Of a stretch of DNA of 64,000 nt, positions 3,212-61,967 are shown in pieces (position 1 is the stretch's first letter; the number at the start of each line of letters is the position of its first letter). The stretch is taken from NCBI RefSeq assembly GCF_038502225.1, contig NC_091341.1:4870139-4934138 (forward strand), given 5' to 3'. The translations under genes were made by a program, and so were the position numbers. The stretch is from Cherax quadricarinatus. Lineage: Eukaryota > Arthropoda > Malacostraca > Decapoda > Parastacidae. The notes under the pieces are model-generated. The model was given only the letters and a program-made list of their open reading frames with translations, was not told the DNA's origin and made no database searches.

Positions 3212-3450
3212 GCCTCCATAGATAACGTTTTTTGACTCCACATATACCTCAACGCACCACTCGCCTTTTTTCCCTCATCAATTCTATGATTAACCTCATC
3301 CTTCATAAATCCATCCGCCGACACGTCAACTCCCAAGTATCTGAAAACATTCACTTCTTCCATACTCCTCCTCCCCAATTTGATATCCAATTTTTCTTTA
3401 TCTAAATCATTTGATACCCTCATCACCTTACTCTTTTCCATGTTCACTTT
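3212..3450 (-). pseudogene. RTE-like LINE ORF, segment between the in-frame stop and the SINE
   Basis: This continues the RT frame of 3451-4512 after a single in-frame TAG. It encodes the MEKSKVMRV and RYLGVDVSADG blocks of the RT thumb region and DEVNHRIDEGKKASGAL, which matches the first residues of the copy at position 3. The frame is then cut by the SINE. Confidence 0.8.
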
Positions 3451-4512
3451 CTACTTTCTACCTTTACACACATTCCCAAACTCATCCACTAACCTTTGCA
3501 ATTTTTCTTTAGAATCTCCCATAAGCACAGTATCATCAGCAAAATGTAGCTGTGTCAATTCCCATTTTGAATTTGATTCCCCAAAATTTAATCCCACCCC
3601 TCTCCCGAACACCCTAGCATTTACTTCCTTTACAACCCCATGTATAAATATATTAAACAACCATGGTGACATTACACATCCCTGTCTAAGACCTACTTTT
3701 ACCGGGAAGTAGTCTCCCTCTCTTCTACACACCCTAACCTGAGCCTCACTATCCTCATAAAAATTCTTTACAGCATTTAATAACTTACCACCTATTCCAT
3801 ATACTTGCAACATCTGCCACATTGCTCCTCTATCCACTCTATCATATGCCTTTTCTAAATCCATAAATGCAATAAAAGCTTCCCTACCTTTATCTAAATA
3901 CTGTTCACATATATGCTTCAATGTAAACACTTGATCTACACATCCCTTACCCACTCTGAAACCTCCCTGCTCATCCACAATCCTACATTCTGTCTTACCT
4001 CTAATTCTTTCAATTATAACCCTACCGTATACTTTTCCTGGTATACTCAGTAAACTTATTCCTTTATAATTTTTACAATCTCTTTTGTCCCCCTTCCCTT
4101 TATACAAAGGGACTATACATGCTCTCCGCCAATCCCTAGGTACCTTCCCCTCTTTCATACATTTATTAAACAAAAATACCAACCACTCCAACACTATATC
4201 CCCCCCTGCTTTTAACATTTCTGTCATGATCCCATCAGTTCCAGCTGCTTTACCCCCTTTCATTCTACGTAATGCCTCACGTACCTCCCCCACACTTACA
4301 TTCTGCTCTTCTTCACTCCTAAAAGATGGTATACCTCCCTGGCCAGTGCATGAAATTACCGCCTCCCTTTTTTCCTCAACATTTAAAAGTTCCTCAAAAT
4401 ATTCTCGCCATCTACCTAATACCTCCCTCTCCCCATCTACTAACTCCCCTACTCTGCTTTTAACTGACAAATCCATACTTTCCCTAGGCTTTCTTAACTT
4501 GTTTAACTCCAA
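3451..4512 (-). pseudogene. Reverse transcriptase core of the RTE-like LINE
   Basis: 353 residues of the RT of a non-LTR retrotransposon, which copies element RNA into DNA at a nicked target. Visible RT blocks in order are KAAGTDGI (about 90), the VPLYKGKGD and NYKGISLLS region (about 130-155), motif A FMDLEKAYDRV (about 215-225), LRQGCVMSPWLFNIF (about 275-290) and the catalytic FADD (residues 324-327, 3532-3543). Key aspartates are intact. A TAG codon ends the frame before the thumb is complete. The upstream endonuclease would lie in or beyond the N gap. A few codons upstream (4503-4660) read in another frame, so a frameshift is also present. Confidence 0.85.
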
Positions 4513-5899: not shown

Positions 5900-6544
5900 A
5901 TGGCTTCAGGAAGAAATCCAAATATTCTTCCTAGGGCGAAAAACACCCGCCAGGCAAATGCCAACAACAGGACACCCGACGCCTCAAAAATCAGAACCCA
6001 AATTAGCAAAAAAATAGAAGAGGGTAACACTATTGGGGCTCTGAGGCTTATAACCAGTGAGGATACCATCGCTCCCAAGGACGTAAGCACGGCGCAAGGT
6101 CTGAAGGACAAACATCCACCCAAGGCTCCCAGTACCAACACTGACCTCCCTGACATTGCAGCAGGCGAAGAGCATCTAACCTTACAGGATGCTGATGTGT
6201 ATAAAGCTGCTGTGCCATTTCCACAGGGCTCAGCAGGTTTCACCGGTTTAAGGCCTCAACACTTAAAACAAATACTCAATCCAGCACTTGGTGAGGTTTC
6301 AGAGAGGCTGCTGTCTGAACTCACCAAATTTTCCAACCTGTGCCTGGCTGGCAGTGTCCCAGAGGCCATCAGACCCCTTTTCTTTGGTGCCTCATTGTGT
6401 GCCCTCCGGAAAAAGGATGGCGGAATCAGGCCCATTGCAGTGGGTAACACCCTTCGGCGCCTAGTCGCCAAGGCTGCAGTAAGAAGGATGAGTCAAGAGG
6501 CTGCTGCAGTGCTGAAACCAACTCAGCTCGGTTTCGGCGTTTAA
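5900..6544 (+). pseudogene. LINE polyprotein, region before and at the start of the RT (copy 2)
   Basis: 214 residues. The tail KKDGGIRPIAVGNTLRRL (about 171-188) is the RT finger block in which a nucleotide-binding region begins. The middle GSAGFTGLRPQHLK (about 109-122) corresponds to the SPGPDG-type block of other LINE RTs. A TAA in place of the next codons truncates the frame. The text then continues in frame-shifted form with KLDFANAFNS, which holds the motif A aspartate (about 6610-6655). Confidence 0.75.
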
Positions 6545-12839: not shown

Positions 12840-13060
12840 GAAATGTGCTCTGATTTTTAAGCATTTCCTGTCGTTAAATGAGACACTTGCGCAACATATG
12901 GGCATCTTTATTCTGGAAATTTTTTACCACTGGCTTCTTCGGTCCAACGCAGAAAAAGGTGGAGGGTGAGGAGGAATTTGAGGTAATCAGTCCCTAAGCC
13001 TGGAGTCGATGTGTTCAACCCATCACTGATGCACTGAACATATGACGACACATTTCCTGT
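12840..13060 (-). mobile_element. Penelope-like element terminus, decayed (hammerhead-like motif degenerate)
   Basis: On the minus strand the order is a CTGATGA-like core mutated to CCGAAGA, an AAGCCAGTGG arm, a mutated GAAA...TTTCC, then AATAAAGATGCCC and TTGCGCAAGTGTC. This parallels the intact arrangement at 24288-24324 and its flank. Several core bases are changed, so activity is not expected. Confidence 0.5.
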
Positions 13061-14129: not shown

Positions 14130-15635
14130 AACAGTTATGGCATAAAACGACATTTGCCCCATTTTCGGTGGCAATCATCCACACTGTATCAGTGACTCAT
14201 AACAATAATAAATCTGAAAATAAACACTGGGCTACCAACAGTTCCAGGTTCATCTCCCATGACTGTTGAGCTGGTTTCTTTTTTATGGAAAATTTTTACT
14301 GTGTAAACGGAATAGCCAGGAGACGGTTTCGGTCATATCACCAAACGTTCCACGGAGTATATCGCCATTAGACTAAAAACCTGCATTAGAAGAAATTTTC
14401 CTATTTGTCCTGACAAACAAAATACCCCAACTACGTCAGCAGTGTGCTTCTTCTGGGGTGAGGGATGAAGGGAAGGTAACCGGGAGGAAGTGTGGGGAAG
14501 GAGGGAAGTTAACAGGGAGGGGAAGGAGGGAAGCAAAACTGGGAGGCGGATATTCCTAGTGTAGTTAGCTCACAACTTCCCTCCTTAACACCACATTATA
14601 CTCAGAAAATTACCGAGATGCACTTATCAAGTTAGCGTCTTGCTGTGGCTGAGGCGGGGAGGCGGGTCATCAGCAATATTGCTCCCTGGCTGCAATGTTG
14701 AACAGGTAAACAATACTCTCGCCACACACACATTCTCCCAGATATCCAAGATATCGAGAATATATTCAAACATAGCACATGACTGCAATATTGAATCGCT
14801 TACAGTACAATATTTCCAGCAAGCACAAAAAATTGGGCTCCCTTGACGTTCATGGCAATGAACATGTAGGTAGACTCGGCAGCTCGTTCTGGAGTTCATG
14901 ACTTACCACTTTCCCAGAGGTAGATCCTATTCTGGGACTGTTTGTACTCTCACCGAGAGTACAGATGGTGTCAGCGTTGGCTGCTTAGTGACCAACAGGC
15001 TGTTTGCCACCAGACAGCAATTAAAGTCTCTGGTTATCTTCACCTCATGCAGAGACGTTTGGCACCTTCCGCTGATGACTTCCTGGACGTACTATCACTT
15101 TATTAAGGGTCTGAAGCCGACCAGAAGAGGCGTTATTCAGTTATTACACGTAATAAAATTAGCAATTTTAAACTCATACCTTAAAGTGAAATCAAATTCT
15201 TCTTTTAATAAAGCCCACTAACCGGGAAAATTTTAAGTCTCTCAATAATTGCATTGAATCCAAGGATTCCATATTTTGTTAACAATTTTCGTATAAATTT
15301 ACATGTATTCAGTCTATACTTATAAGGTGTCTTCATTCTGATCAGTGATAATATTTTGAAGCTGATACGACAAGGCACTTCTTCTCTAATAAAAATCAAT
15401 ATTACTATTCAATGAAACTATCAAATTGACACATATAAAGTTCAATGACAACATTAACTTTGCGTTCTAGAAAATACACAAACGTTGAAAATTTGAAGCC
15501 GATCAGAAGAGGCGTTCTCCAGTTATCACAAGTACTCCAAAGATTCTGAGTTTAAAATAAATAGTGTAATGGCAAACTTGGCAGCACGAGACTAAAATAT
15601 CTTAACCACTAAATAACGAAGCTATTGTAAAGAAG
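14130..15635. other. Unassigned stretch with three copies of a short GAAGCCGA motif
   Basis: No gene recognised. A GGAAGG-rich tract lies at 14460-14540. The motif TTTGAAGCCGATCAGAAGAG or a close variant occurs near 15110, 15355 and 15492, each followed by a TTATCAC-like end. Related copies lie near 16870 and 39.9-41.2 kb. Confidence 0.5.
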
Positions 15636-15720
15636 TTCGTGACTCTATAAAGCCCACTACATGGGCGAAACGTTGTCAATGAAGGATCACATTATACTGC
15701 TTAAGTGTTTATATTTCCAA
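15636..15720 (+). mobile_element. Penelope-like terminus fragment with degenerate hammerhead-like core
   Basis: AAGCCCACTACATGGGCGAA forms a 4-bp stem (GCCC/GGGC) and is followed by ACGT. The upstream CTGATGA is degenerate (CTCTATA). This is the same arrangement as at 24288-24324. Confidence 0.5.
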
Positions 15721-15736
15721 TATATATTTATTTTAT

Positions 15737-18668: not shown

Positions 18669-20125
18669 TCACACCCACCCACATCTACTCATGTATTTAT
18701 CCAACCTATTTTTAAAGCTACACAACGTTCTGGCCTCTATAACGGTACTTGGGAGTTTGTTCCACTCATCCACAACTCTATTACCAAACCAGTACTTTCC
18801 TATATCCTTCCTGAATCTGAATTTTTCCAACTTAAAACCATTGCTGCGAGTCCTGTCTAGGCTAGATATTTTCAGCACACTATTTACATCCCCTTTATTT
18901 ATTCCTGTCTTCCACTTATACACCTCAATCATATCCCCCCTAATTCTACGTCTTTCTAGAGAGTGCAGTTTCAGGGCCCTCAGTCTATCCTCATAGGGAA
19001 GGTTTCTGATACATGGGATCATCTTTGTCATCCTCCTTTGTACATTTTCCAGAGAATTTATATCCATTCTGTAATACGGTGACCAAAACTGTGCAGCATA
19101 ATCTAAATGAGGCCTAACCAAGGATGTATAGAGTTGAAGAACAACCTGAGGACTCCTATTATTTATGCTTCTTGATATGAAGCCAAGGATTCTATTAGCT
19201 TTATTGCGAACACTTATGCACTGTTGTCTTGGTTTCAGATTACTGCTAACCAGAACTCCTAAATCTTTTTCGCAATCCGTAATATTAAGATCTACATTAT
19301 TTAGTTTATATGTGGCATGGTTATTGTCCTGTCCAACATTTAGAACTTTGCATTTGTCTATATTAAACTGCATCTGCCACTTCTCCGACCACTGCATCAG
19401 TCTATTCAAATCTTCCTGGAGTGCTCGAATGTCCTCGTCAGAATGAATTCGACGGCCTATTTTGGTGTCATCGGCAAACTTGCCGATGTCGCTCTTTATG
19501 CCCTCATCTATGTCGTTTATGTAGATTGTGAACAGCAGGGGGCCCAACACTGACCCCTGTGGAACACCGCTTGTGACGCTACCCCACTCTGATTTCTCCC
19601 CATTTATGCAAACTCTCTGCTGCCTATTTGTCAACCATGCCTCTATCCAGGAAAAAATTTCTCCTCCTATTCCATGTGCTTTAATTTTCCTCAATAGTCT
19701 CTGATGTGGGACCCTGTCAAAAGCCTTACTGAAGTCCATATACACAATATCATATTCATTACCATGATCTACCTCCTCAAATACCTTAGTGAAAAAAGTT
19801 AATAAATTCGTAAGGCAGGAATGCCCCTTTGTAAAACCATGCTGAGATTCGTTGATTAATTTATGCTTTTCAAGGTGGCTACGAACTGCCTCGGCAATTA
19901 TTGATTCCATAAATTTTCCCACTATGGAGGTTAGGCTTATTGGTCTATAGTTCGAAGCTAAGGACCTGTCACCTGTTTTGAAAATAGGTATCACATTTGC
20001 CATTTTCCACTTATCTGGCACCATGCCAGTTTGTAGTGATATGTTGAAAAGATTAGCCAAAGGTGTGCTAAGCTCCTCTTTACATTCCTTTAGAACCCTG
20101 GGGATTTGTTAGGTTTTAATTTATC
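18669..20125 (-). pseudogene. CR1-like ORF2, reverse transcriptase and C-terminal part
   Basis: 463 open residues from 20060; homologous text begins in the same frame a little upstream (RVLKECKEELSTPLANLF). Blocks are SNYRPISLTSIVGKFMESII, motif A YMDFSKAFDRVP (D109), motif B SGVPQGSVLGPLLFTIYIND, catalytic FADD (195-198, 19467-19478), then LGVLVSSNLK and the C-terminal YAAQFWSPYY and VVDEWNKLP regions. GVPQGSVLGPLLF is the CR1/jockey-type motif B. All RT catalytic aspartates are intact. The protein would copy element RNA at the nicked target. Only the upstream junction is damaged, by a deletion removing the PDG-type block and shifting frame. Confidence 0.9.
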
Positions 20126-21592
20126 TATTTGCCTAAGGACCATGTCCCTTGTGACCCTAATAGTGCACAGTTTATTATCGTCCTGTTCTACATAATTTAT
20201 CATTACTGGAATATCGCTGGTATCCTCCTGTGTAAAAACTGAGAGGAAGTATGTGTTAAAAATTCTACACATTTCCTTATCACTGTCAGTGAGCTGACCC
20301 GAGGAACTTTTGAGTGGGCCTATCTTGTCCCTGATCTTACTTCTGTATACCTGAAAGAATCCTTTTGGGTTAGTCTTCGATTCTCTTGCAACTTTAACCT
20401 CATAATCTCTTTTTGCTTTTCTAATTCCCTTTTTTATTTCTCTCTTTAACTGAATATATCGATTTCTTAATTGCCCCTCTCCTCTTTTGATTTGCCTATA
20501 TATGCCTCTCTTTTGACCAATCAGATATTTTAATCTATTGTTCATCCATTTAGGATCATTTTTGTTTGATCTGATTTCCCTATTTGGAACATAATTTGAC
20601 TGAGCAGCTAGAACTATGCCCTGGAAAGCATCATATCGGCAACCATCACCACCTACCTGACCCTTAATCAGGTCATTCCAGTTCAGCCCACCTAAGTAAT
20701 TTTTCAGTCCTATGAAATCAGCCAAGCGAAAGTCAGGGACGGAGACTTGATTGCCATTATTAGGGGAATTCCATGATATATTAAAACTGAGTGATTTGTG
20801 ATCACTCTCCCCAAGTTCATCATTAACCTCAAGATTATTAATTAGTGTTTCCCTACTGGCAAGAACCAAGTCAAGGAGGTTATTTCCCCTAGTTGGCTCT
20901 GTCACAAACTGTTTTAAAAAACAATCCTGGATCGTATCAAGAAAGTCACCCGACTCTAAATTTCCTGTCAAATTGCTCCAGTCAATCTGTCTATAGTTGA
21001 AATCTCCCATTAGCACAACATTTTCGTATGTAGATGCCTTACGAATTTCGTCCCATAGAAGTTTACTGCACTCCCTATCAAGATTTGGGGCCCTGTAAAT
21101 CACACCCAAAATTAGTTTTTCTCGGCCCTCGAGAAGCTGTAACCAAACAGATTCAGTGGCTGACGCTTCTAATTTAATATCTTGTCTAACACAACAATTT
21201 AAATTGTCTCTGACATACATCGCTACTCCACCACCTTTCCTGTTGACCCTGTCAGTGTGGAATAATTTATAGCCTTGTATGTGACATTCAGAGGGCATCT
21301 CTCTATCTTTCAGATTGAGCCAGGTCTCTGTTATAGCAATAATATCTATGTTTCCTGCACTTGCAATTAATCTTAGCTCATCTATCTTATTTCTAACACT
21401 CCTGCTATTAGTATAGTAAACCTTAAGGGAGCTAGTCCCTTGCTGCCCTCTGCTGTCCCCCTTTGTTTGCTGACCTGTTCTATTGTCTTTATTTATAACT
21501 TCATGCTGAATGCCTTTTATACATTTACTGTTTCCAACCCTAGTGTTGCAACCTGCTTGTTTCCCACACACACCCATACCTCTATCTTCCAT
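20090..21592 (-). CDS. CR1-like ORF2, AP endonuclease domain and linker
   Basis: 500 residues. An apurinic-endonuclease-like (exonuclease III family) domain nicks the target to prime reverse transcription. Its signature residues are YYTNSRSVRNK (59-69), E89 in TETW, GDFN (196-199) and SDH (263-265), all intact. A basic linker follows (about 370-410, RQIKRGEGQLRNRYIQLKRE). The frame ends at SPGF because sequence after KPNKSPG is deleted; intact relatives continue with a PDG-type block into the RT. The start codon at 21592 overlaps the ORF1 stop. Without the deletion this would join 18669-20125. Confidence 0.9.
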   Translation of the reverse strand: MEDRGMGVCGKQAGCNTRVGNSKCIKGIQHEVINKDNRTGQQTKGDSRGQQGTSSLKVYYTNSRSVRNKIDELRLIASAGNIDIIAITETWLNLKDREMPSECHIQGYKLFHTDRVNRKGGGVAMYVRDNLNCCVRQDIKLEASATESVWLQLLEGREKLILGVIYRAPNLDRECSKLLWDEIRKASTYENVVLMGDFNYRQIDWSNLTGNLESGDFLDTIQDCFLKQFVTEPTRGNNLLDLVLASRETLINNLEVNDELGESDHKSLSFNISWNSPNNGNQVSVPDFRLADFIGLKNYLGGLNWNDLIKGQVGGDGCRYDAFQGIVLAAQSNYVPNREIRSNKNDPKWMNNRLKYLIGQKRGIYRQIKRGEGQLRNRYIQLKREIKKGIRKAKRDYEVKVARESKTNPKGFFQVYRSKIRDKIGPLKSSSGQLTDSDKEMCRIFNTYFLSVFTQEDTSDIPVMINYVEQDDNKLCTIRVTRDMVLRQIDKLKPNKSPGF

Positions 21593-21594
21593 CA
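21590..21594 (-). promoter_or_regulatory. UGAUG stop-start overlap between ORF1 and ORF2
   Basis: The ORF1 stop TGA (21594-21592) and ORF2 start ATG (21592-21590) share the A. Overlaps of this kind (UAAUG in the silkworm LINE SART1) support termination-coupled reinitiation. That ORF2 is translated this way here is inference. Confidence 0.75.
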
Positions 21595-22518
21595 GTTTAA
21601 AATCATAGGCATTTCACCAATGGCCTTCTCAATCGAGTCTGCAAGTGCTACCACCCCTGCCCCAGAGAGATGTACCCCATCCCTTGCATACATATCATGT
21701 TTGCCATAAAAGTTGTTCCAGTTGTCAATGAATGGGATTGCAAGTTCCTTGCAGTATCTGTCTAGCCAGCAATTTACACCAATTGCCCTAGACAACCATT
21801 CATTTCCTACTCCCCTTCTAGGCAAGATGCTACATATGATTGGGATCCCTCCCTTAGACTTAATGAAATCTATAGCTGACCTGTACTTATCTAGCAGCTC
21901 TTCTCTCCTACCCTTCCCAATATCATTTCCACCAGCACTGAGACAGATAATGGGCTTGTTCCCATTACCTGACATGATATTATCCAGCCTGTTGACAATG
22001 TCCCCAACACCAGCTCCAGGGAAGCACACTCTATCTCTCATCTTCTTATTCCTATTACAAAAAGCACGGTCAATATATCTTACCTGAGAGTCACCAACCA
22101 CAAGAATGCGCTTACCTTCATTAGCAGGGGCAGTAGTACCCTTACCTTCACTGGCCACTGAAGTACATTCATCCTGGAGAACAGAGAAGCGATTTCCTAC
22201 CTTCAGATCTTCACTCTTAATTTTCCTTACTCTGATGCGCCTCCCATTACTGTGAACAACTCGCCACTTGTAGCAGGTGCTGGGCTGCACCTCACTGCTG
22301 GTAGCCATTGCTACCTGCCCAACTACAGCCTCCTCACAGCGAGAGACAGACTGCACCTCACTGCTAGAAGTCTCATTCCCCACAACTCCAGCCACCTCAC
22401 ACTCTCTCCCAGACCCATTGAGGTGGACCTTCAGCCTCCTAATCTCCTCCTGGAGAAGCAAGACCTCCTCCTTCAACTCTCCAACCTCAGTTTTTAAAAC
22501 ACTGCAGAAGCAAGCCAT
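21592..22518 (-). CDS. CR1-like ORF1: coiled coil plus SGNH/GDSL esterase domain
   Basis: 308 residues, intact from ATG to stop. Residues 6-34 form a short leucine-rich coiled coil (heptads through KTEVGELKEEVLLLQEEIRRL). A low-complexity linker follows. Residues 136-300 read as an SGNH hydrolase: block I VVGDSQVRYID with Ser144, block II glycine in FPGAGV (168-170), block III SAGGNDIG with Asn198, block V ARDGVHLSGAG with Asp280 and His283. ORF1 proteins with an esterase domain are known in CR1-type LINEs; they bind element RNA, and the esterase role is unsettled. The catalytic set is complete. ORF2 follows with a 1-base overlap. Confidence 0.9.
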   Translation of the reverse strand: MACFCSVLKTEVGELKEEVLLLQEEIRRLKVHLNGSGRECEVAGVVGNETSSSEVQSVSRCEEAVVGQVAMATSSEVQPSTCYKWRVVHSNGRRIRVRKIKSEDLKVGNRFSVLQDECTSVASEGKGTTAPANEGKRILVVGDSQVRYIDRAFCNRNKKMRDRVCFPGAGVGDIVNRLDNIMSGNGNKPIICLSAGGNDIGKGRREELLDKYRSAIDFIKSKGGIPIICSILPRRGVGNEWLSRAIGVNCWLDRYCKELAIPFIDNWNNFYGKHDMYARDGVHLSGAGVVALADSIEKAIGEMPMILN

Positions 22519-23573: not shown

Positions 23574-23870
23574 TAGTGGCCTACATCTCACCTCCTGGCG
23601 GTATATAGGCTCCATCCTGTCACTTCAACTCCATATTGTTTCAGACTATGGAACAATACTCTTCTCCAGACTGAGGGACTGACCACCTCAAAACGTCAAG
23701 GGTGATGGACTGATTACATCGTCTTCAAGTATCTTCTGCTTCTATCAACTTTTCTGTACTCGAATGAAGAAGTCTATTGTGTAGGCGAAACGTTTCGAAA
23801 TAAAGATACCTAACTGTTGCAAATGTGTCTTACCTAACAACCTGTCGGTATTTATACAATTTTAATGTTC
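23574..23870 (+). mobile_element. Penelope-like element terminus (degenerate hammerhead core)
   Basis: A stem-like AGTCTATTGTGTAGGC is followed by GAA, ACGT and TTCG (about 23773-23799). Downstream come AATAAAGATACC, GTTGCAAATGTGTC and TGTCGGTATTTATA, the same tail order as beside the pair at 24.3 kb. The CTGATGA core is altered (CGAATGA). Confidence 0.55.
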
Positions 23871-24165: not shown

Positions 24166-24214
24166 AAAAATAATTAAAGCAACAGGATTAACAATTCAAG
24201 GCCGCTATTGTTTA

Positions 24215-24325
24215 TGTACATTAATGGTACATAGAACCGACAAGTTGATAAATTAGACGGATGTGCAACACTTGGATATCTTCACTGAGGAAACGTTTCG
24301 CCACACAGTGGCTTCATCAGTCCTA
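24215..24325 (-). mobile_element. Penelope-like element terminus, minus strand
   Basis: On the minus strand a hammerhead-like motif (24324-24288) is followed by GAAGATATCC, AAGTGTTGCACATCCGTC and AATTTATCAACTTGTCGG. Hammerhead motifs in the terminal repeats of Penelope-like elements are established. No RT or GIY-YIG coding part is present here. Confidence 0.6.
24288..24324 (-). ncRNA. Hammerhead-ribozyme-like motif, all core bases present
   Basis: Reading 24324 to 24288 on the minus strand: stem I AGGA, core CTGATGA, a single A, stem II GCC with loop ACTGTGT and GGC, core GAA, palindromic stem III ACGT, T at the cleavage position, then TCCT closing stem I. All conserved core bases of a type I hammerhead are present. 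Stem III has no loop of its own, which in known cases works as a dimer through the self-complementary ACGT. The extra A before stem II and the 4-bp stem I make in vitro activity uncertain. Confidence 0.65.
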
Positions 24326-24380
24326 AGCAAAGAATGGTGAAGATCGGAAGGATTGCCTCAATCTCCTGATCTCCATCATC

Positions 24381-24417
24381 AGGACTGATGAAGTCACTGC
24401 CTGGTGACACGTTTCCT
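24381..24417 (+). ncRNA. Hammerhead-ribozyme-like motif, inverted partner with one core change
   Basis: Same architecture on the plus strand: AGGA (24381-24384), CTGATGA (24385-24391), stem II GTC/GGT with loop, then GAC in place of GAA (24406-24408), ACGT (24409-24412), T, TCCT (24414-24417). The C at 24408 replaces an invariant core A, so this copy is probably inactive. It faces the minus-strand copy across 56 bp. Confidence 0.55.
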
Positions 24418-24469
24418 GAGGAAAGATACACAAGTATCGCACACATATTGTTTGTTCACTGTGCAAGGT

Positions 24470-24920
24470 GAATCCCTGCATGAAGGCTCCTGGTAATTGT
24501 TTCATCGATTTCTTACCCTTCCCAGTCTGCAGTAAGATGATATTTTATGTGAAGTTTATATTTGTGATGTAAATACACTTTCTGATAGTTCCAATAATAT
24601 TTTCTACGGTGTCAAGTATTCATTTCCATATTTATTTTTGTTTTCTGAGTTCTGAATAATTTTTGTAACATGTTCAAATGCTATATAAAAATTATTATGC
24701 TTACATTCTTGTTGAATAATGAAGCTTAAATATGAATTTAATTCTATCATTTTTAACTATTAAGTTTTTCGAAAATTATTTTACCGTTAACCGGCAAGGA
24801 GGACATTTTCGGTCCCTTCAAAAATAAAAAAGTCAAGGAGTAAACATGCCCTAAAAAAAAGGTTCTACTTTAAGTCTACATGAGCAGATTTTGTTTTTCT
24901 TTGCCGATTTTGAAGCTTGT
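24470..24920. other. Unassigned AT-rich stretch
   Basis: No gene or repeat recognised. Confidence 0.5.
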
Positions 24921-37685: not shown

Positions 37686-37689
37686 TCTG

Positions 37690-37770
37690 TATTAGTGTGC
37701 TAAAGCCCACTGTACGGGAGAAACGTCTCAAAAAATACTCAGGTGTTGCACATGCGTCTATACAGTCTAT
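37690..37770 (+). mobile_element. Penelope-like terminus fragment with hammerhead-like stem
   Basis: AAGCCCACTGTACGGGAGAA then ACGTCTC, with GTTGCACATGCGTCTATAC downstream. The CTGATGA core is degenerate (GTGCTAA). Confidence 0.5.
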
Positions 37771-48199: not shown

Positions 48200-48363
48200 T
48201 AAGTAAAAATAGACAAGTGCAACTAATGTGACATTTTATTGTGGCAACGTTTCGGTCTCCAGGAGCTTTGTCATGCCGTTAACAAAGCTTGACAAAGCTC
48301 CTGGAGAACTAAACAATGCCACAACAAAATTTCGCATTAGTTGCCATTGAGTCCTTTTACTTA
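48200..48363. mobile_element. Head-to-head pair of CGTTTCGG-type termini (palindrome)
   Basis: Left arm 48200-48273 and right arm 48290-48363 are 74-bp reverse complements at about 80% identity with a 16-bp spacer. Each ends inward with TCTCCAGGAGCTTTGTCA. The left arm keeps AACGTTTCGG; in the right arm it is mutated. Confidence 0.7.
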
Positions 48364-51269: not shown

Positions 51270-52055
51270 TCGGTGATGAAAACACCAGCTAGCTACTCGG
51301 GAGACGCGATCACCTTGGAAAAAGAAGTTTGGAGGTCGCAGCTACAACCTGGCCAAAACGACTCTGTTGTTCATGTCTCTGACACTATATTGTGATCAAC
51401 TGTGATGTAGTGATACTACCAATTATCGCAAAATGAATTAGTCCACGATATATTTCAGTACGCAGTAAAACTTGAGGGAAAGGAGGTTTTTGAGAGATAC
51501 AGAGAACATTCAGAGGAAATGTCTCATGAAAGTGATAAATTATTCGCAGAATTTCATTCTCGGGAGAAGTAGTAACGAGATCAACAAGTGTTGCACCACA
51601 AGATAACATGAAGGAGGTGAATATGAAGGGAAAGAGTGTCAAGGGATTCGTATGAATGAAATAGGTATGAAGGAAGTGGGTACGATGGAATTTAGTATGA
51701 AGGTAGCGAGTATGAAGGTGAGTAAAAACAGAGAAACATGAATGTGAATTTGAGGAATGTGAATATGAAATAAATGAGTATAAACAAGGAAAATATTTAG
51801 AACTGAGAGTTCGAAAGATGTAAATATACAGGAAGAATGAAGGAAATGAATGAATGAATGAATCAATCAATCAATAAGTAGGGTAACAATGGTAAACTTA
51901 AAATGAATGAAGATTCAAATGAATGACGAAGTTGGAATAAAGTACAGAAATACTTAATGATTTAAATCTGAGAGAGAACAGGATGATTGCTGAAGTGTTC
52001 TGGAAGAGAACAGAATGATTGTTGGAGTGTTTTGTTCTATGAGACAGAATAGGAT
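51268..52055. other. Unassigned stretch with a loose GTATGAAGG repeat
   Basis: AGTATGAAGGTAG-type units recur at 51608-51720. GAATGAATGAATGAAT and AATCAATCAATC at 51845-51871. No gene. Confidence 0.5.
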
Positions 52056-52059
52056 GGCT

Positions 52060-55000
52060 GTTGTAGTGCTCTTCGAGACCACAGGAAGTATGTTGGAGCG
52101 CTCTAAAAGAGTATAGGATGGGTGCTAGAGTGCTCGAGGAGAGTACAGGATGGGCGCTGGCGTGCTCTAATACAGTGAAGGATGGGTGCTGGATGAATGT
52201 TGGAATGCTCAGAAAGAGTAAAGGAGGGGTGCTAGAATGCTCTAATAGAAGATAGAATGAGTGTTGGAGTGCTCTGCTAGAGTACTGGTTGGACGTTGAA
52301 GTGCCCTCGAAGAGTACAGGAAGGGTGTTGGAGTGCTCTAGGAGAGTACAGGATTGATGATGGAATGCTCTGGGAAAGTAGAGGATCGATGTTCTAGTGC
52401 TCTCGGAGAGTACAGGATTGGTGTTGGACTGCTCTGGAAGAGTATAGGATGGGTGTTGGACTGTTCTGGGAGAGTATAGGATGGGTATTGGACTGTTCTG
52501 GGACAGTACAGAATGGGTATTGGACTGTTCTGGGAGTACACGATGGGTGTTGGACTGTTCTGAGAGAGTACAGGATGGGTGTTGGACTGCTCTGGGAGAG
52601 TACAGGATGGGTGTTGAACTGTTTTGGGAGAGTAAAGGATGTGTGTTGGACTGTTCTGGGAGAGTACAGGATGGGTGTTGGACTGTTCTGGAAGAGTACA
52701 GGACGGGTATTGGACTGCTCTGGGAGAGTACAGGATGGGTGTTGGACTGTTCTGGGAGAGTACAGGATGGGTGTTGGACTGTTCTGGGAGAGTACAGGAT
52801 GGGTGTTGGATTGTTCTGCGAGTACAGGATGGGCACTGGACTGTTCTGGGAGAGTACAGGATGGGTGTTGGACTGTTCTGGGAGAGTACAGGATGGGTGT
52901 TGGACTGTTCAGGAAGAGTACAGGATTGGTATTGGACTATTCTGGGAGAGTACAGGATGGGTGTTGGACTGTTCTGGCAGAGCACAGGATGGGCATGGGA
53001 CTGTTCTTGGAGACTACAAAATCGGTATTGGACTGTTCTGGGAGAGTACAGGTTTGGTATGGGACTGTACTGGGAGAGTACAAGTTGGGTATGGGACTGT
53101 TTTGGGAGAGTACAGGATGGGTATGGGACTGTTCTGGGAGAGTACGGGATGGGTATGGGACTGTTCTGGGAGAGTACAGGATGGGTATTGGACTGTTCTG
53201 GGAGAGTAAAGGATGGGTATTGGACTGTTCTGGGAGAGTACAGGATGGGTATTGGACTGTTCTGGGAGAGTACAGGATGGGTATTGGACTCTTCTGGGAG
53301 AGTACAGGATGGGCGTTGGACAGTTCTGAGAGAGTACAGGATGGGTGTTGGACGGGTCTGGGAGTACAGGATGGGCATTGGACTGTTCTGGGAGAGTACA
53401 GGATGAGTTTTGCACTACTCTGGGAGAGTACAGGATTGGTATTGGACTATTCTGCGAGAGTACAGGATAGGGAGAGTACAGGTTTGGTATTTGACTATTC
53501 TGGGAGAGTACAGGATGGGTATTGGACTGTTCTGGGAGAGTACAGGATGGGTGTTGAACTGTTCTGAGAGAGTACAGGAACGGTGTTGGACTGTTCTGGG
53601 AGAGTACAGGATGGGCATGGGACTGTTCTGGGAGAGTACAGAATGGGTACCGGACTGTTCTGGGAGAGTAAAAGATGGGTATTGGACTGTTTTGGGAACG
53701 TACAGGATGGGTATTGGACTGTTCTGGGAGCGTACAGGATGGGTGTTGGACTGTTCTGGGAGAGTACAGGATGGGCATGGGACTGTTCTGGGAGAGTATA
53801 GGATGGGTGTTGGAATGTTCTGAGAGAGTACAGAATGGGTGTTGCATTATTCTCTGAGAGTACAGGATGGGTATTGGACTAATCTGCGAGAGTACAGGAT
53901 GGGTATGGGACTGTTCTGGAAGAGTACAGGATGGGTGTTGGACTGTTCTGGGAGAGTACAGAATGGGTGTTGGACTGTTCTGGGAAAGTACAGGTTGGGT
54001 ATGGGACTGTTCTGAGAGAGTACAGGCTGGGTATGGGACTGTTCTGGGAGAGTACAGGAAGGGTATGGGACTGTTCTGGGAGAGTACAGGATGGGTATGG
54101 GACTGTTCTGGGAGAATACAGGATGGGTGTTGGACTGTTCTGGGAGAGTACAGGATGGGTATTGGACTGTTCTGGGAGAGTACAGGATGGGTATTGGACT
54201 GTTCTGGGAGAGTACAGGATAGGTGTTGGACGGTTCTGGGAGTACAGGATGGGCATTGGACTGTTCTGGGAGAGTACAGGATGGGTTTTTCATTACTCTG
54301 GGAGAGTACAGGATTGGTATTGGACAATTCTGGGAGAGTACAGGATAGGCTTTGCACTATTCTGGGAGAGTACAGGTTTGGTATTTGACTATTCTGGGAG
54401 AGTACAGGATGGGTGTTGGACTGTTCTGGGATAGTACACGATGGGTATTGGACTGTTCTGGGAGAGTAAAGGATGGGTGTTGGACTGTTCTGAGAGAGTA
54501 CAGGAAGGGTGTTGGACTGTTCTGGGAGAGTACAGGATGGGCATGGGACTGTTAATGGAGAGTACAGGATGGGTATAGGACTGTTGTGGGAGAATACAGG
54601 ATGGGTGTTGGACTGTTCTGGGAGAGTACAGGATGGGTATTGGACTTTTCTGGGAGAGTAAAGGATGGGTATTGGACTGCTCTGGGAGAGTACAGGATGG
54701 GTATTGGACTGTTCTGGGAGAGTACAGGATGGGTATTGGACTCTTCTGGGAGAGTACAGGATGGGCGTTGGACAGTTCTGAGAGAGTACAGGATGGGTGT
54801 TGGACGGTTCTGGGAGTACAGGATGGGCATTGGACTGTTCTGGGAGTACAGGATGGGCATTGGACTGTTCTGGGAGAGTACAGGATGGGATTTGCACTAC
54901 TGTGGGAGAGTACAGGATTGGTATTGGACTATTCTGCGAGAGTACAGAATAGGGAGAGTACAGGTTTGGTATTTCACTATTCTGGGAGAGTACAGGATGG

Positions 55001-58000
55001 GTATTGGACTGTTCTGGGAGAGTACAGGATGGGTGTTGGACTGTTCTGAGAGAGTACAGGAAGGGTGTTGGACTGTTCTGGGAGAGTAAAGGATGGGTAT
55101 TGGACTGTTTTGGGAACGTACAGGATGGGTATTGGACTGTTCTGGGAGCGTACAGGATGGGTGTTGGACTGTTCTGGGAGAGTACAGGATGGGCATGGGA
55201 CTGTTCTGGGAGAGTACAGGATGGGTGTTGGACTGTTCTGAGAGAGTACAGAATGGGTGTTGCATTATTCTCTGAGAGTACAGGATGAGTATTGGACTAA
55301 TCTGCGAGAGTACAGGATGGGTATGGGACTGTTCTGGGAGAGTACAGGATGGGTGTTGGACTGTTCTGGGAGAGTACAGAATGGGTGTTGGACTGTTCTG
55401 GGAGAGTACAGAATGGGTGTTGGACTGTTCTGGGAGAGTACAGGTTGGGTATGGGACTGTTCTGAGAGAGTACAGGTTGGGTATGGGACTGTTCTGAGAG
55501 AGTACAGGTTGGGTATGGGACTGTTCTGAGAGAGTACAGGTTAGGTATGGGACTGTTCTGAGAGAGTACAGGAAGGGTATGGGACTGTTCTGGGAGAGTA
55601 CAGGATGCGTATGGGACTGTTCTGGGAGAATACAGGATGGGTGTTGGACTGTTCTGGGAGAGTACAGGATGGGTATTGGACTGTTCTGGGAGAGTACAGG
55701 ATGGGTAATGGACTCTTCTGGGAGAGTACAGGATGGGTATTGGACTGTTCTGGGAGAGTACAGGATGGGTATTGGACTCTTCTGGGAGAGTACAGGATAG
55801 GCTTTGCACTATTCTGGGAGAGTACAGGTTTGGTATTTGACTATTCTGGGAGAGTACAGGATGGGTGTTGGACTGTTCTGGGATAGTACAGGATGGGTAT
55901 TGGACTGTTCTGGGAGAGTAAAGGATGGGCATGGGACTGTTAAGGGAGAGTACTTGATGGGTACCGGACTGTTCTGGGAGAGTAAAGAATGGGTATTGGA
56001 CTGTTTTGGGAGCGTACAGGATGGGTACTGGACTGTTCTGGGAGCGTACAGGATGGGTGTTGGACTGTTCTGGGAGATTACAGGACGGGTATTGGACTGC
56101 TCTTTGAGAGTACAGGATGGGTGTTGGACTGTTCTGGAAGAGTACAGGATGGGTGTTGGACTGTTCTTGGAGAGTACAGGATGGGTGTTGGACTGTTCTG
56201 GGAGAGTACAGAATGGGTGTTGGATTGTTCCGGGAGAATACAGGATGGGTATTGGACTGTTCTGGGAGAGTACAGAATGGGTGTTGAACTGTTCTGAGAG
56301 AGTACAGGATGGGTGTTGGACTGTTCTGGTAGAGTACAGGATGGGTACTGGCCTGTTCTGGGAGAGTACAGGATGGGTGTTGGACTGTTCTGGGAGAGTA
56401 CAGGATTGGCATGGGACTGTCCTGGGAGAGTACAGGATTGGTTTTGGACTGTTCCTGGAGAGTACAGAATGGGTGTTGGACTGTTCTAGGAGAGTACAGG
56501 ATGGGTGTTGGACTGTTCTGGGAGAGTACAGGATGGGTATTGGACTGTTCTGGTAAAGTACAGGATGTGTATTGGACTGTTTTGGGAGAGTACAGGAAAA
56601 GTATTGGACTGTACTGGGAGAGTATAGGATTGGTGTAGGACTGTTCTGAGAGAGTACATGATGGGTTTTGGACTGCACTAGGAGAGTACAGGACGGGTAT
56701 TGGACTGCTCTGGGAGAGTACAGGATGGGTGTTGGAATGTTCTGGGAGAGTACAGGATCGGTGTTGGACTGTTCTGGGAGAGTACAGGATGGGTGTTGGA
56801 CTGTTCTGGGAGAGTACAGGATGGGTATTGGACTGTTCTGGTAGAGTACAGGATGGGTATTGGACTGGTCTGGGAGAGTCAAGGATGGGGCTTGGACTGT
56901 TCTGTGAGAGTAAAGGATGGGTGTTGGACTGTTCTGAGAGAGTACAGGATTGGTGTTGGACTGTTCTGGGAGAGTACAGGACGGGTATAGGACTGTTCTG
57001 GGAGAGTACAGGATGGGTATTGGACTGTTCTGGGAGAGTACAGGATGGGTGTTTGGCTTTTCTGGGAGAGTACAGGATGGGCATGGGACTGTTCTGGAAG
57101 AGTAAAGGATGCGTATTGGACTGTTCTGGGAGAGTACAGGATGGGTATTGGACTGTTCTGGGAGAGTACAGGATGGGTGTTGGACTGTTCTGGGAGAGTA
57201 CAGGATTGGTGTTGGACTGTTCTGGGAGAGTACAGGATGGGTATTGGACTGTTCAGGGAGAGTACAGGATGGGTATTGGACTTTTCTGGGAGAGTACAGG
57301 ACGGGCTTTGGACTGCACTAGGAGAGTACAGGAAGGGTATTGGACTGCTCTGGGAGAGTACGGGATGGGTGTTGGACTGTTCTGGGAGAGTACAGGATGG
57401 GTGTTGGACTGTTCTGGGAGAGTACAGGATGGGTGTTGGATGGTTCCGGGAGAGTACAGGACGGGTATTGGACTTCTCTGGGAGAGTACAGGATGGGTGC
57501 TGGACTGTTCTGGGAGAGTACAGGATGGGTGTTGGATGGTTCCGGGAGAGTACAGGATGGGTATTGGACTGTTCTGGGAGAGTACAGGATGGGTGTTGAA
57601 CTGTTCTGAGTACAGGATGGGTGTTGGACTGTTCAGGGAGTGTACAGGATGGGTATTGGACTGTTCTGGGAGAGTACAGGATGGGTGTTGGACTGTTCTG
57701 GGAGAGTACAGGATGGGTGTTAAACTGTTCTAGGAGAGTACAGGATGGGCATGGGCCTGTTCTGGGAGAGTACAGGATGGGCATGGGACTATTCTTGTAG
57801 AGTACAGGATTAGTGTTTGACTGTTCAGGGAGAGTACAGGATTGGTATTGGACTGTTCCTGGAGAGTACAGAATGGGTATTGGACTATTCTGGGGGAGTA
57901 CAGGATGGGTGTTGGACTGTTCTGGTAGAGTACACGATGGGTGTTGGACTGTTCTGGGAGAGTACAAGATGGGTGTTGGACTATCGTGGGAGAGTACAGG

Positions 58001-61000
58001 ATGGGTTTTGGCGTGCACTAGGAGAGTACAGGATGGGTGTTGGACTGTTCTGGAGAGTACAGCACGGGTATTGGACTGCTCTGGGAGAGTACAGGATGGG
58101 TGTTGGACTGTTCTGGAAGAGTACAGGATGGGTTTTGGACTGCACTAGGAGAGTACAGGATGGGTTTTGGACTGCACTAGGAGAGTACAGGATGGATATT
58201 GGACAGCTCTGGGAGAGTACAGGATGGCCGTTGGACTGTTCTGGGAGAGTACAGGATGGGTGTTGAACTGTTCTGGGAGAGTACAGGATTCGTATTGGAC
58301 TGTTCCTGGAGAGTACAGAATGGGTATTGGACTGTTCTGGGAGAGTACAGGATGGGTGTTGGACTGTTCTGGGAGAGTACAGGATGGGTGTTGGACTGTT
58401 CTGGGAGAGTACAGGATGGGTTTTGGACTGCACTAGGAGAGTAGAGGACGGGTATTGGACTGCTGTGGGAGAGTACAGAATGGATGTTGGACTGTTCTGG
58501 AAGAGTACAGGATGGGTTTTGGACTGCACTAGGAGAGTACAGGACGGCTATTGGACTGCTCTGGGAGAGTACTGGATGGGTGTTGGACTGTTCTGCGATA
58601 GTACAGGATGGGTATTGGACTGTTCTGGGAGAGTACAGGATGGGTGTTGGACTGTTCTGGGAGAGTACAGGATGGGTGTTGGACTGTTCTGGGAGAGTAC
58701 AGGATGGGTGTTGGACTGTTCTGGGAGAGTACAGGATGGGTGTTGGACTGTTCTGGGAGAGTACAGGATGGGTGTTGGACTGTTCTGGGAGAGTACAGGA
58801 TGGGTGTTGGACTGTTTTAAGAGAGTACAGGATGGGTGTTGGACTGTTCTAAGAGAGTACAGGATGGGTGTTGGACTGTTCTGGTAGAGTACAGGATGGG
58901 TATTGGACTGATCTGGGAGAGTACAGGAAAGGTATTGGACTGTTCTGGGAGAGTCTGGGAGAGTACAGGATTGGTAATGGACTGTTCTCGGAGAGCACAG
59001 CATGGGCATTGGACTGTTCTGGGAGAGTACAGGAAGGGTGTTGGACTGTTCTGGGAGAGTATAGGATTGGTGTAGGACTGTTCTGGGAGAGTACATGATG
59101 GGTTTTGGACTGCTCTGGGAGAGTACAGGATGGGTGTTGGACTGTTCTGGAAGAGTACAGGATGGGTCTTGGAATGCACTAAGAGAGTACAGGACTGGTA
59201 TTGGACTGCTCTTGTAGAGTACAGGATCGGTGTTGGACTGTTCTGGGAGAGTACAGGATGGGTGTTGAACTGTTGTGGGAGAGTACAGGATGGGTGTTGG
59301 AGAGTATAGGATGGGTATTGGACTGTTCTGGGAGAGTACAGGATGGGTGTTGGACTGTTCTTGGAGAGTACAGGATGGGTATTGGACTGTTCTGGGAGAG
59401 TACAGGATGGGTGTTGGACTGCTCTGGGAGAGTACAGGATGGGTGTTGGACTGTTCTGGGAGAGTACAGGATGTGTGTTGGACTGTTCTTGGAGAGTACA
59501 GGATGGGTGTTGGACTGTTATGGAAGAGTACAGGATGGGTTTTGTACTGCACTAGGAGAGTGCAGGACTGATATTGGACTGCTCTGGGAGAGTACAGGAT
59601 GGGTATTGGACTGTTCTGGGAGAGTACAGGATGGGTGTTGGGCTGTTCTGAGAGAGTACAGGATGGGTGTTGGACTGCTCTGGGAGAGTACAGGATTGGT
59701 ATTGGACTGTTCTGGGAGAGTAAAGGATGGGTATTGGACTGTTCTGGGAGAGTACAGGATGGGTGTTGGACTGCATTAAGAGAGTACAGGACGGGTATTG
59801 GACTGCTCTGGGAGAGTACAGGATGAGTGTTGGACTGTTCTGGAAGAGTACAGGATGGGTGTTGGACTGCATTAAGAGAGTACAGGAAGGGTATTGGACT
59901 GCTCTGGGAGAGTACAGGATGGGCATTGGACTGCTCTAGGAGAGTACAGGATGGGTGATGGACTATGCTGGGAGCGTACAGAATGGGTATTGGACTATTC
60001 TGGGAGAGTACAGGATGGGAGTTGGACTATTCTGGGAGAGTACAGGATGGGTGTTGGACTATTCTTGGAGAGTACAGGATTGGTGTTGGACTGTTCTGGG
60101 AGAATACAGGATGGGTGTTGGACTGTTCTGGGAGAATACAGGATGGGTGTTGGACTTTTCTGGAGGAGTACATGATGGGTTTTGGACTGCACTAGGAGAG
60201 TACAGGACTGGTATTGGACTGCTCTGGGAGAGTACAGGATGGGTATTGGACTGTTCTGGGAGAATACAGGATGGGTGTTGGACTGTTCTGGGAGAGTACA
60301 GAATGGGTATTGGACTGTTCTGGGAGAGTACAGGATGGGTATTGGACTGTTCTGGGAGAGTACAGGATGGGTGTTGGACTGTTCTGGGAGAGTACAGGAT
60401 GGGCATGGGACTGTTCTGGGAGAGTACAGGATTGGTATTGGACTGTTCTGGGAGAGTACAGCATGGGTATTGGACTGCTCTGGGAGAGTACAGGATGGGT
60501 GTTGGACTGTACTGGAAGAGTACAGGATGGGTTTTGGACTGCACTAGGAGAGTACAGGATGGATATTGGACAGCTCTGGGAGAATACAGGATGGCCGTTG
60601 GACTGTTCTGGGAGAGTACAGGATGGGTGTTGGACTGTTCTGGGAGAGTAGAGGATGGGTGTTGGACTGTTCTGGGAGAGTAGAGGATGGGTGTTGGACT
60701 GTTCTGCGATAGTACAGGATGGGTATTGGACTGTTCTGGGAGAGTACAGGATGGGTGTTGGACTGTTCTGGGAGAGTACAGGATGGGTGTTGGACTGCAC
60801 TAGGAGAGTACAGGACGGGTATTGGAATGCTCTGGGAGAGTACAGGATGGGTGTTGGACTGTTCTGGGAGAGTACAGGATGGGTGTTGGACTGTTCTGAG
60901 AGAGTACAGGATGGGTATTGGACTGTTCTGGGAGAGTACAAGATGGGTGTTGGACTGTTCTGGGAGAGTACAAGATGGGTGTTGGACTGTTCTGGGAGAG

Positions 61001-61770
61001 TACAGGATGGGTGTTGGACTGTTCTGGCAGAGTACAGGATGGGTGTTGGACTGTTCTGAGAGAGTACAGGATGGGTTTTACACTATTCTGGGAGAGTACA
61101 GGATTGGTATTGGACTGTTCTGGGAGAGTAAAGGATGGGTATTGGACTGTTCTGGGAGAGTACAGGATGGGTATTGGACTGTTCTGGGAGAGTAAAGGAT
61201 GGGTATTGGACTGTTCTGGGAGAGTAAAGGATGGGTATTGGACTGTTCTGGGAGAGTACAGGATTGGTATTGGACTGTTCTGGGAGAGTAAAGGATGGGT
61301 ATTGGACTGTTCTGGGAGAGTAAAGGATGGGTATTGGACTGTTCTGGGAGAGTACAGGATGGGTATTGGACTGTTCTGGGAGAGTACAGGATGGGTATTG
61401 GATTGTTCTGAGAGAGTACAGGATGGGTGTTGGACTGTTCTGGGAGAGTACAGGATGTGTATTGGATTGTTCTGAGAGAGTACAGGATGGGTATTGGACT
61501 GTTCTGGGAGAGTACAGGATGGGTATTGGATTGTTCTGGGAGAGTACAGGATGGGTATTGGACTGTTCTGGGAGAGTACAGGATGGGTATTGGATTGTTC
61601 TGAGAGAGTACAGGATGGGTGTTGGACTGTTCTGGGAGAGTACAGGATGGGTATTGGATTGTTCTGGGAGAGTACAGGATGGGTATTGGACTGTTCTGGG
61701 AGAGTACAGGATGGGTATTGGATTGTTCTGAGAGAGTACAGGATGGGTGTTGGTGTGCTGTAGAAGAGTA
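52060..61770. repeat. 32-bp satellite array, about 300 copies (9.7 kb)
   Basis: Unit GGGAGAGTACAGGATGGGTG followed by TTGGACTGTTCT. Main variable sites are GTGTT/GTATT/GCATG in the middle and GTTCTGGG/GCACTAGG/GTTCTGAG at the end. The left edge (52060-52440) is diverged, and the blocks at 58600-58830 and 61090-61740 are nearly uniform. Three units give 96 bp, so frames of up to 627 codons stay open on both strands; none has a domain or start context, and I do not call a gene. Higher-order copies are present (see findings). Confidence 0.97.
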
Positions 61771-61772
61771 CA

Positions 61773-61967
61773 GGTAAAACTGGTCAATTAGAAATTACTC
61801 TTTTAAAGCCGTTTCTTAAATTTTTTCTTATACATTAAAAGATATATTTTTTCACTTACGTTAAAATAAAATTTAATTATTTTTTACCAGAAGAACCTTG
61901 CCTTATTCGGCAAGAAGTGCGTTGCTTTTTTATCCAAAATAGCAACTTTTTCTTATTCGGTACGACA
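61773..61967 (+). mobile_element. MITE, 5'-truncated and internally deleted, at the satellite edge
   Basis: Starts at GGTAAAACTGGTCAATTA, which directly continues the last satellite unit. The right terminal repeat is TATTCGGTACGACA (61954-61967, one mismatch). About half the interior is missing. Confidence 0.8.

Follow-up and report, generated by a model that had tools for sequence, protein, structure and literature searches.

A 231-bp insert with two inverted hammerhead motifs in a crayfish genome, read as paired pLTR remnants of a Penelope-like element

We analysed a 64-kb stretch of DNA, hereafter the window, in which a 231-bp insert (24215-24445) carries a TATTGTTT repeat on either flank. 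The two copies of this target-site duplication lie at 24206..24213 on the left and at 24446..24453 on the right; their ninth base is A on the left and G on the right, and the duplication has a match score of 8 (p=0.012 versus mismatched flanks of other copies). The insert is made up of two pLTR arms. The first, on the minus strand (24215..24352), was recognized by blastn of the arm consensus with 90% identity; its outer end (24215) corresponds to arm position 157 and its inner end to arm position 17, and it alone bears a tail of ~31 nt (24215..24245, minus strand, arm positions about 127-157, the inner limit being approximate). The second arm, on the plus strand (24353..24445), is placed head to head with the first and has no tail. 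It was recognized by blastn at 24381-24443, with the inner part and the last bases placed by eye, and stops near arm position 112, ~14 nt before the usual short site. The insert therefore shows the one-sided tail (about 30-40 bp) and the target duplication by which remnants of Penelope-like elements (PLEs) are known. A tblastn search of the window with the protein of a near-intact relative (L127, see below) returned nothing, and because no RT/GIY-YIG ORF was found in this way, the insert was filed as a pLTR remnant and not as a PLE copy apparently able to move on its own.

The hammerhead motifs are found within these arms. The sequence-only reading had described an inverted pair of hammerhead-like motifs with a palindromic stem III at 24288-24417, one intact and one dead, and had tied them to PLEs. 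Our analysis bore out the layout with its letters and coordinates. The minus copy (24324-24288) reads AGGACTGATGAAGCCACTGTGTGGCGAAACGTTTCCT and is a minimal type I hammerhead with an intact core and a predicted cut after the T at 24292. It has the core, stems I and II, a self-complementary stem III and an H17 that is not G, as minimal dimeric PLE hammerheads do, and it was the sole match when both strands of the 64 kb were scanned with a descriptor of a minimal hammerhead that requires the palindrome. The plus copy (24381..24417) is a relic, which differs from the minus copy at 5/37 positions and has lost the GAA of the core (GAA to GAC at 24406-24408, the changed base being 24408); this damage resembles the normal decay that an old insert undergoes. 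Some details of the earlier description had to be amended. Stem II was present but has 5 bp (GCCAC/GTGGC, with a UGU loop) instead of 3 bp, and an unpaired extra A follows the CTGATGA core. The motifs did form an inverted pair across 56 bp, but most of this spacer is formed by the arms' inner ends, and the inverted repeat extends beyond the motifs (63-nt arms, 81%).

Covariance models gave two answers. The public models of Rfam release 15 were negative, with 0 matches across the window at the gathering threshold. At E<=10 they returned five weak lines for 24200-24500, no hammerhead among them covering the minus motif (a type II hammerhead of 12.6 bits lay off it), and at E<=1 L158 and L127 were likewise without a hammerhead match. 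The covariance check suggested in the sequence-only reading thus failed with the public models, but it succeeded with a model built from the family itself. This model was positive for both copies, with 65.3 bits for the minus one (24330-24282; E=3.3e-15) and 35.2 bits for the plus one (24375-24423; E=6.5e-7), the E-values being rough and the 24 relatives in the model (alignment A2, zero window letters) having themselves been gathered by homology to the window repeat. At E<=1 this model matched eight window sites, of which the minus copy ranked first. Folded as single sequences, the two motifs did not stand out (z -1.47 and -1.98). In viral contigs, pattern scans gave 68 matches, none with a stem II of at least 3 pairs plus a stem I of at least 2, and two further scans were empty; blastn against phages found just two 27-nt matches (E=0.3), and a literature search for the motif letters gave titles on unrelated subjects only.

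Further diverged relatives of the inverted repeat are present in the window. One of them, a diverged pLTR arm from a related subfamily, stands apart at 23749..23849 on the plus strand and contains a hammerhead relic (23754-23804, plus, E=5e-11). Another head-to-head pair, made up of hammerhead relics from a different subfamily (GGC..GCC stem I), sits at 48236-48327; its members abut with a 6-nt overlap and no spacer (48284-48236, minus, E=6e-9; 48279-48327, plus, E=5e-4). An L127-type pLTR relic with a hammerhead relic (15634-15684, plus, E=2.8e-6) occupies 15634-15736 with 84% identity over 98 nt. The remaining matches of the family model are at 12952-12908 on the minus strand (E=0.055) and 37687-37737 on the plus strand (E=0.41). 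Apart from these, a broken LINE-type element with RT, exo/endonuclease and an upstream GDSL lipase-like ORF was seen on the minus strand at 18669-22518. A region of ~10 kb (~51900-61800) is strongly G-skewed (skew near 0.57), contains long repetitive frames that overlap one another, and is probably a minisatellite.

The 3.95-Gb assembly was searched for such arms, and a 157-nt arm consensus was built from 20 loci; loci are labelled L and contigs C. The best 40 of 2474 candidates were scored in the first genome search and the best 40 of 4016 in a later one, so that 48 loci were examined (20 plus 30 further ones, minus the duplicates L128, L131 and L139, plus the window). Among these best-scoring candidates a full arm was found in 45/48 loci, a number raised by arm queries that favour full-length arms; the arm-end count leaves out L081, L086 and L093, in which the long arm ends before 150. 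In the same set, 29/45 full arms had a head-to-head partner within 500 nt and 16/45 had none. In these best-scoring pairs the long arm ended at 155-157 in 28/29, and the short arm at 123-131 in 17/29 and outside this range in 12/29. For example, the partner arm ends at 149 in L096, and both ends are near the tail site in L157. Flanking repeats with p<0.05 were seen in 14/29 of these pairs, the window copy included; an earlier, stricter duplication rule gave 6/27 pairs versus 1/702 mismatched flanks. At L081 (1041-1251) both arms stop at the short site, and the flanking DNA is itself palindromic, unlike that of other pairs.

Copies associated with GIY-YIG were looked for as well, and the best 150 of 14,992 candidates were scored. 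Among these best 150, all 27 neighbouring pairs within 8 kb were head to head. Outer ends were read in 21 of the 27 (left out were C1112, C5:33637161, C77, C44:24088336, C7:23973892 and C6:23735332), and 20/21 of these pairs from the best 150 of 14,992 combined a short end at 111-116 with a tail end at 142-144, each of which could be on either side; the remaining pair ended at 125 and 144, and the same site was used twice in 0/21. Flanking repeats of 9-12 bp accompanied 14/21 of these pairs (again from the best 150 of 14,992), versus 0/420 mismatched flank pairs, while a repeat of at least 9 bp was absent in 7/21, L127 included.

L127 provides the link to PLEs. It is a near-intact element with a pLTR (3421-3755), an ORF with RVT_1 and GIY-YIG, and a direct pLTR (6010-6344), accompanied by an inverted 5'-truncated copy that is 99.8% identical over 2528 bp and breaks off 32 nt before the tail end. 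Arm positions 61-157 (97 nt) align with both L127 pLTRs at ~67% identity, and the L127 pLTR hammerhead has the same layout as the window family. The window arms thus share homology with a pLTR whose element encodes RT and GIY-YIG, as expected of a PLE remnant, and the tie to PLEs in the earlier reading was upheld. A complete RT/GIY-YIG ORF on a pLTR of the window's own (A) subtype was not found in the loci read; for that reason the PLE link of the window family rests on the homology and on a similar-looking ORF start, since the 378-nt units described below run into a short stretch resembling, by eye, the start of the L127 ORF. Three proposals were dropped on the way. An ATG at arm position 110 was considered as ORF start, but L127, whose first ATG is downstream of the tail, and the 378-nt units place the start downstream of the tail. 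L109 was taken to prove that its ORF and the hammerhead belong together, and turned out to be a junction of truncated pieces. L127 had appeared to be hammerhead-less in a search that demanded G8, and a relaxed search found its U3-A8 form.

This relaxed hammerhead-like search gave 85 matches, of which 13 failed the stem criteria. The order common to the subfamilies is stem I, core, A, stem II, GAA, ACGT, H and stem I. Alignment A1 (33 sequences) lists one of each kind with the failed ones included, and omits the unrelated L114, the second of a pair of identical rows from L081, and the window relic 12908-12952. In A1, 85.8% of cells pair, and the covariation was 0.408 versus 0.182+/-0.018 in shuffled alignments and <=0.136 in slid registers, though relatedness of the sequences inflates such scores, and one of the five covariation measures (both-sided pair changes) was not clearly above the shuffles (8 vs 6.2; 64/500 as high). 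Alignment A2, from which the covariance model was made, further omits four window rows and L081, two of L086, L090 and L084:490; here 89.2% of cells pair and the covariation was 0.497 versus 0.224+/-0.022 shuffled, a score that is raised by the omission of these five extra, mostly decayed rows. Single pairs of A2 changed on both sides. The stem I pair of columns 10 and 42 was A-U in 12/24 and C-G in 11/24, and the core pair C3-G8 was C-G in 12/24, U-A in 11/24 and U-G in 1/24. U3-A8 replaces C3-G8 in L127 (3638-3688) and related pLTRs, that is, in several subfamilies and one near-intact element. Comparison of the aligned copies therefore establishes that the putative hammerhead fold covaries across subfamilies, the exchange of C3-G8 for U3-A8 included. 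The core of 42 aligned L127-type ends read TTGAAAA in 23, TTGAGAA in 18 and ATGAAAA in 1, and position 7, where it almost solely varies, is the free position of CUGANGA. In the available part of PMC11167929, cleavage by a PLE hammerhead was abolished by a single change of C3 or G8 and partly restored by the double change. A literature search for a U3-A8 core found nothing. The exchange is a naturally occurring compensation within the hammerhead core and is open to assay. The invariance of ACG in A1 is forced, because the relaxed search pattern demands GAAACG; ACG was for this reason counted again in copies aligned by homology alone, where ACGT was present in 39/42 GIY-YIG-associated pLTR ends and in 94/112 A-type arms, with no other palindrome among the commonest non-ACGT variants listed.

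Outside the window the family also forms perfect 378-nt tandems (the best 40 of 259 candidates for such units were scored). Head-to-head inverted arrays of them were observed at L158, 158-4229 (C2377:30850-35150), and at C14:40719689-40728451. The array at C2377 has four hammerheads on the minus side opposite seven on the plus side, six of the latter being identical and one changed. Its units show 100% identity apart from the outermost ones of the plus arm, in which all four differences are located. The minus arm comprises 4 units and 1 nt and the plus arm 6.78 units, with a 5-nt central overlap; inner and outer ends are all away from the hammerhead cut, and ACAAGATGAAA is seen by eye on both flanks. 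A circular or multimeric RNA copied from both target strands would give such an array, and DNA amplification could also have produced it. Tandem hammerhead units, the mark of non-LTR retrozymes, were absent at the window locus, where the copy is an inverted pair.

Taken by its sequence, the insert at 24215-24445 is thus a pair of 5'-truncated head-to-head pLTRs of one PLE, and not a separate ribozyme device. We consider it very likely that the whole is explained by one old PLE-derived insertion, with its paired truncated pLTRs left as a by-product of reverse transcription primed from two strands. The repeat family, the pLTR homology, the flanking duplications, the two fixed outer ends and the covariation are established by the comparisons above; the order of priming, the number of RNAs and the joining we infer. 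The GIY-YIG endonuclease would make a staggered cut of ~9-12 nt, and the 3' ends of both target strands would prime reverse transcription of the element RNA, with one start at the tail site and a second, ~31 nt upstream, at a short site. Both cDNAs would run toward each other and join at their truncated 5' ends, giving a head-to-head insert with its 3' ends outward and duplications made by fill-in. Priming from two strands at a staggered cut would thereby account for head-to-head arms, outward 3' ends and filled-in duplications, as were observed. The minimal type I hammerhead once present in each pLTR would, by its design, have been able to cleave only as a dimer through the self-complementary ACGT stem III, and the motif pair in the window would be a by-product of the insertion. 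As far as the accessible text of PMC11167929 goes, a PLE protein cuts and extends both strands, and two RT start sites on the RNA bound the tail; no in vitro difference in start site was seen between the strands, which counts against this explanation. So do the lack of a PLE ORF match in the window and of a complete same-subtype ORF in the loci read, the short arm of the window, which ends before the usual short site, the 12/29 short arms outside 123-131, L157, with both ends near the tail site, the unpaired 16/45 full arms within 500 nt among the best-scoring candidates, and the 7/21 GIY-YIG pairs, including L127, that are without a flanking repeat of at least 9 bp.

PLE insertion may be obligately two-template, with a protein dimer and two RNAs paired via the ACGT stem III, one per strand and site, and with the hammerhead serving mainly for pairing; we hold this for a rather unlikely extension. 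A hammerhead kept mainly for RNA pairing and not for cleavage would fit because, in the part of PMC11167929 at hand, hammerhead mutants left in vitro insertion unaffected. The in vivo activity and role of PLE hammerheads were called "still a mystery" in the section of PMC7761336 consulted.

Among other explanations, a snap-back is the one that survives best, though it is improbable. One cDNA or antisense RNA would fold back and prime itself, the second arm being copied from the first, and self-priming was indeed proposed for head-to-head Penelope copies in the portion of PMC3846280 available. The head-to-head order, the 99.8% identity of the L127 arms over 2528 bp and the 5-nt overlap of the L158 arms at the centre are what it leads one to expect. 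However, a simple snap-back predicts equal outer ends, whereas 20/21 GIY-YIG pairs (from the best 150 of 14,992) combine a short and a tail end, and in the one left over the ends are at 125 and 144; duplications at the outer ends in 14/21 of the same pairs do not agree with it either. Far less probable are two independent insertions of single pLTRs that face each other by chance. Single arms do exist, as the 16/45 unpaired ones among the best-scoring candidates illustrate, but a single duplication encloses both arms, and independent events would mix orientations, while all 27 GIY-YIG pairs (best 150 of 14,992) share one.

The sequence-only reading had gone further: from the 56-bp spacer within the pair and the differing fate of its two members it proposed a one-sided self-cleaving transcript. 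This was not supported, for the head-to-head order is a recurrent insertion form, an arm-on-arm fold is predicted, and no TATAWA was found on either strand of the 231-nt unit, whereas in one of the family's 378-nt units a TATATAA lies upstream of the hammerhead, at a distance of 127 nt. The arm-on-arm fold of the minus transcript is predicted at -108.2 kcal/mol, versus -75.5 with hammerhead stems I and II enforced, and the pairs of these stems have a probability of 0.0 in its ensemble. The plus transcript is predicted to fold likewise (-106.8 kcal/mol). RNA of the window unit should bury the ribozyme by such folding, which makes a one-sided self-cleaving transcript unlikely. That the pair was retained as a regulatory device or as a transcript of that kind is hence very doubtful: the minus core is intact and has the top score among the eight window matches, but the unit lacks TATAWA, the other arm is predicted to sequester the motif, and the arrangement recurs as an insertion form at numerous loci. 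Most likely the locus is inert, and the window pair probably makes no active ribozyme now. A DNA transposon with terminal inverted repeats (a MITE or fold-back element) would likewise be a short palindromic unit with target duplications, but is hardly credible, as the outer ends are unequal by ~31 nt and the inner ends variable, the same pLTR design flanks an RT/GIY-YIG ORF, and compensatory changes track the hammerhead fold.

With the reading as a single PLE-derived insertion, the locus is a relic, and the part worth following is the two-site, head-to-head rule of the 21 pairs (from the best 150 of 14,992). In this family, neighbouring copies lie head to head with one end per fixed site and the duplications outside, and the rule bears on PLE integration and on the retention of the hammerhead. 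If it holds genome-wide, it would turn the two-site, two-strand behaviour of a lizard PLE in vitro into a testable insertion model and would argue against a simple snap-back.

Minimal dimeric type I hammerheads of PLEs have reportedly been described by Cervera and de la Pena (2014) and by Lunse, Weinberg and Breaker (2017). These hammerheads, inverted pLTRs and the one-sided tail are all already published for PLEs, and the locus adds one more case. The crayfish hammerheads are similar in their type I layout, near-absent helix III, presumed cleavage as dimers and location in the pLTR; possible points of difference are the extra A that follows the core in every subfamily encountered and the U3-A8 of some. 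In Pen2a_Av of Adineta vaga, as presented in the accessible part of PMC3846280, an inverted pLTR lies beside direct pLTRs and one inverted pLTR has a 31-bp tail; target duplications are about 8-10 bp, head to head is the commonest order, and the tail is called optional. The inverted pLTR, the one-sided tail, the short duplications and the head-to-head order are therefore common to Pen2a_Av and the crayfish family. However, the crayfish copies are mostly reduced to a pLTR pair and have hammerheads, a word with 0 occurrences in the text of PMC3846280 at hand, and in contrast to the optional tail of that account, the two-end asymmetry is found in all but one unclear case of the 21 GIY-YIG pairs (from the best 150 of 14,992).

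PAc, the Poseidon PLE of Anolis, is alike in having a hammerhead in the pLTR and a tail between two RT start sites, going by the part of PMC11167929 available. Both strands were cut and extended there with no strand difference in vitro, whereas the arms of the crayfish pairs use different sites; moreover, the PAc ORF starts inside the hammerhead, whereas the first ATG of L127 is downstream of the tail. The metazoan non-LTR retrozymes, as described in the consulted part of PMC7229834, resemble the perfect 378-nt tandems in being short tandem units with type I hammerheads. The crayfish 378-nt units differ in being PLE pLTRs that include a TATA box and a stretch like an ORF start, and in their head-to-head arrangement at C2377.
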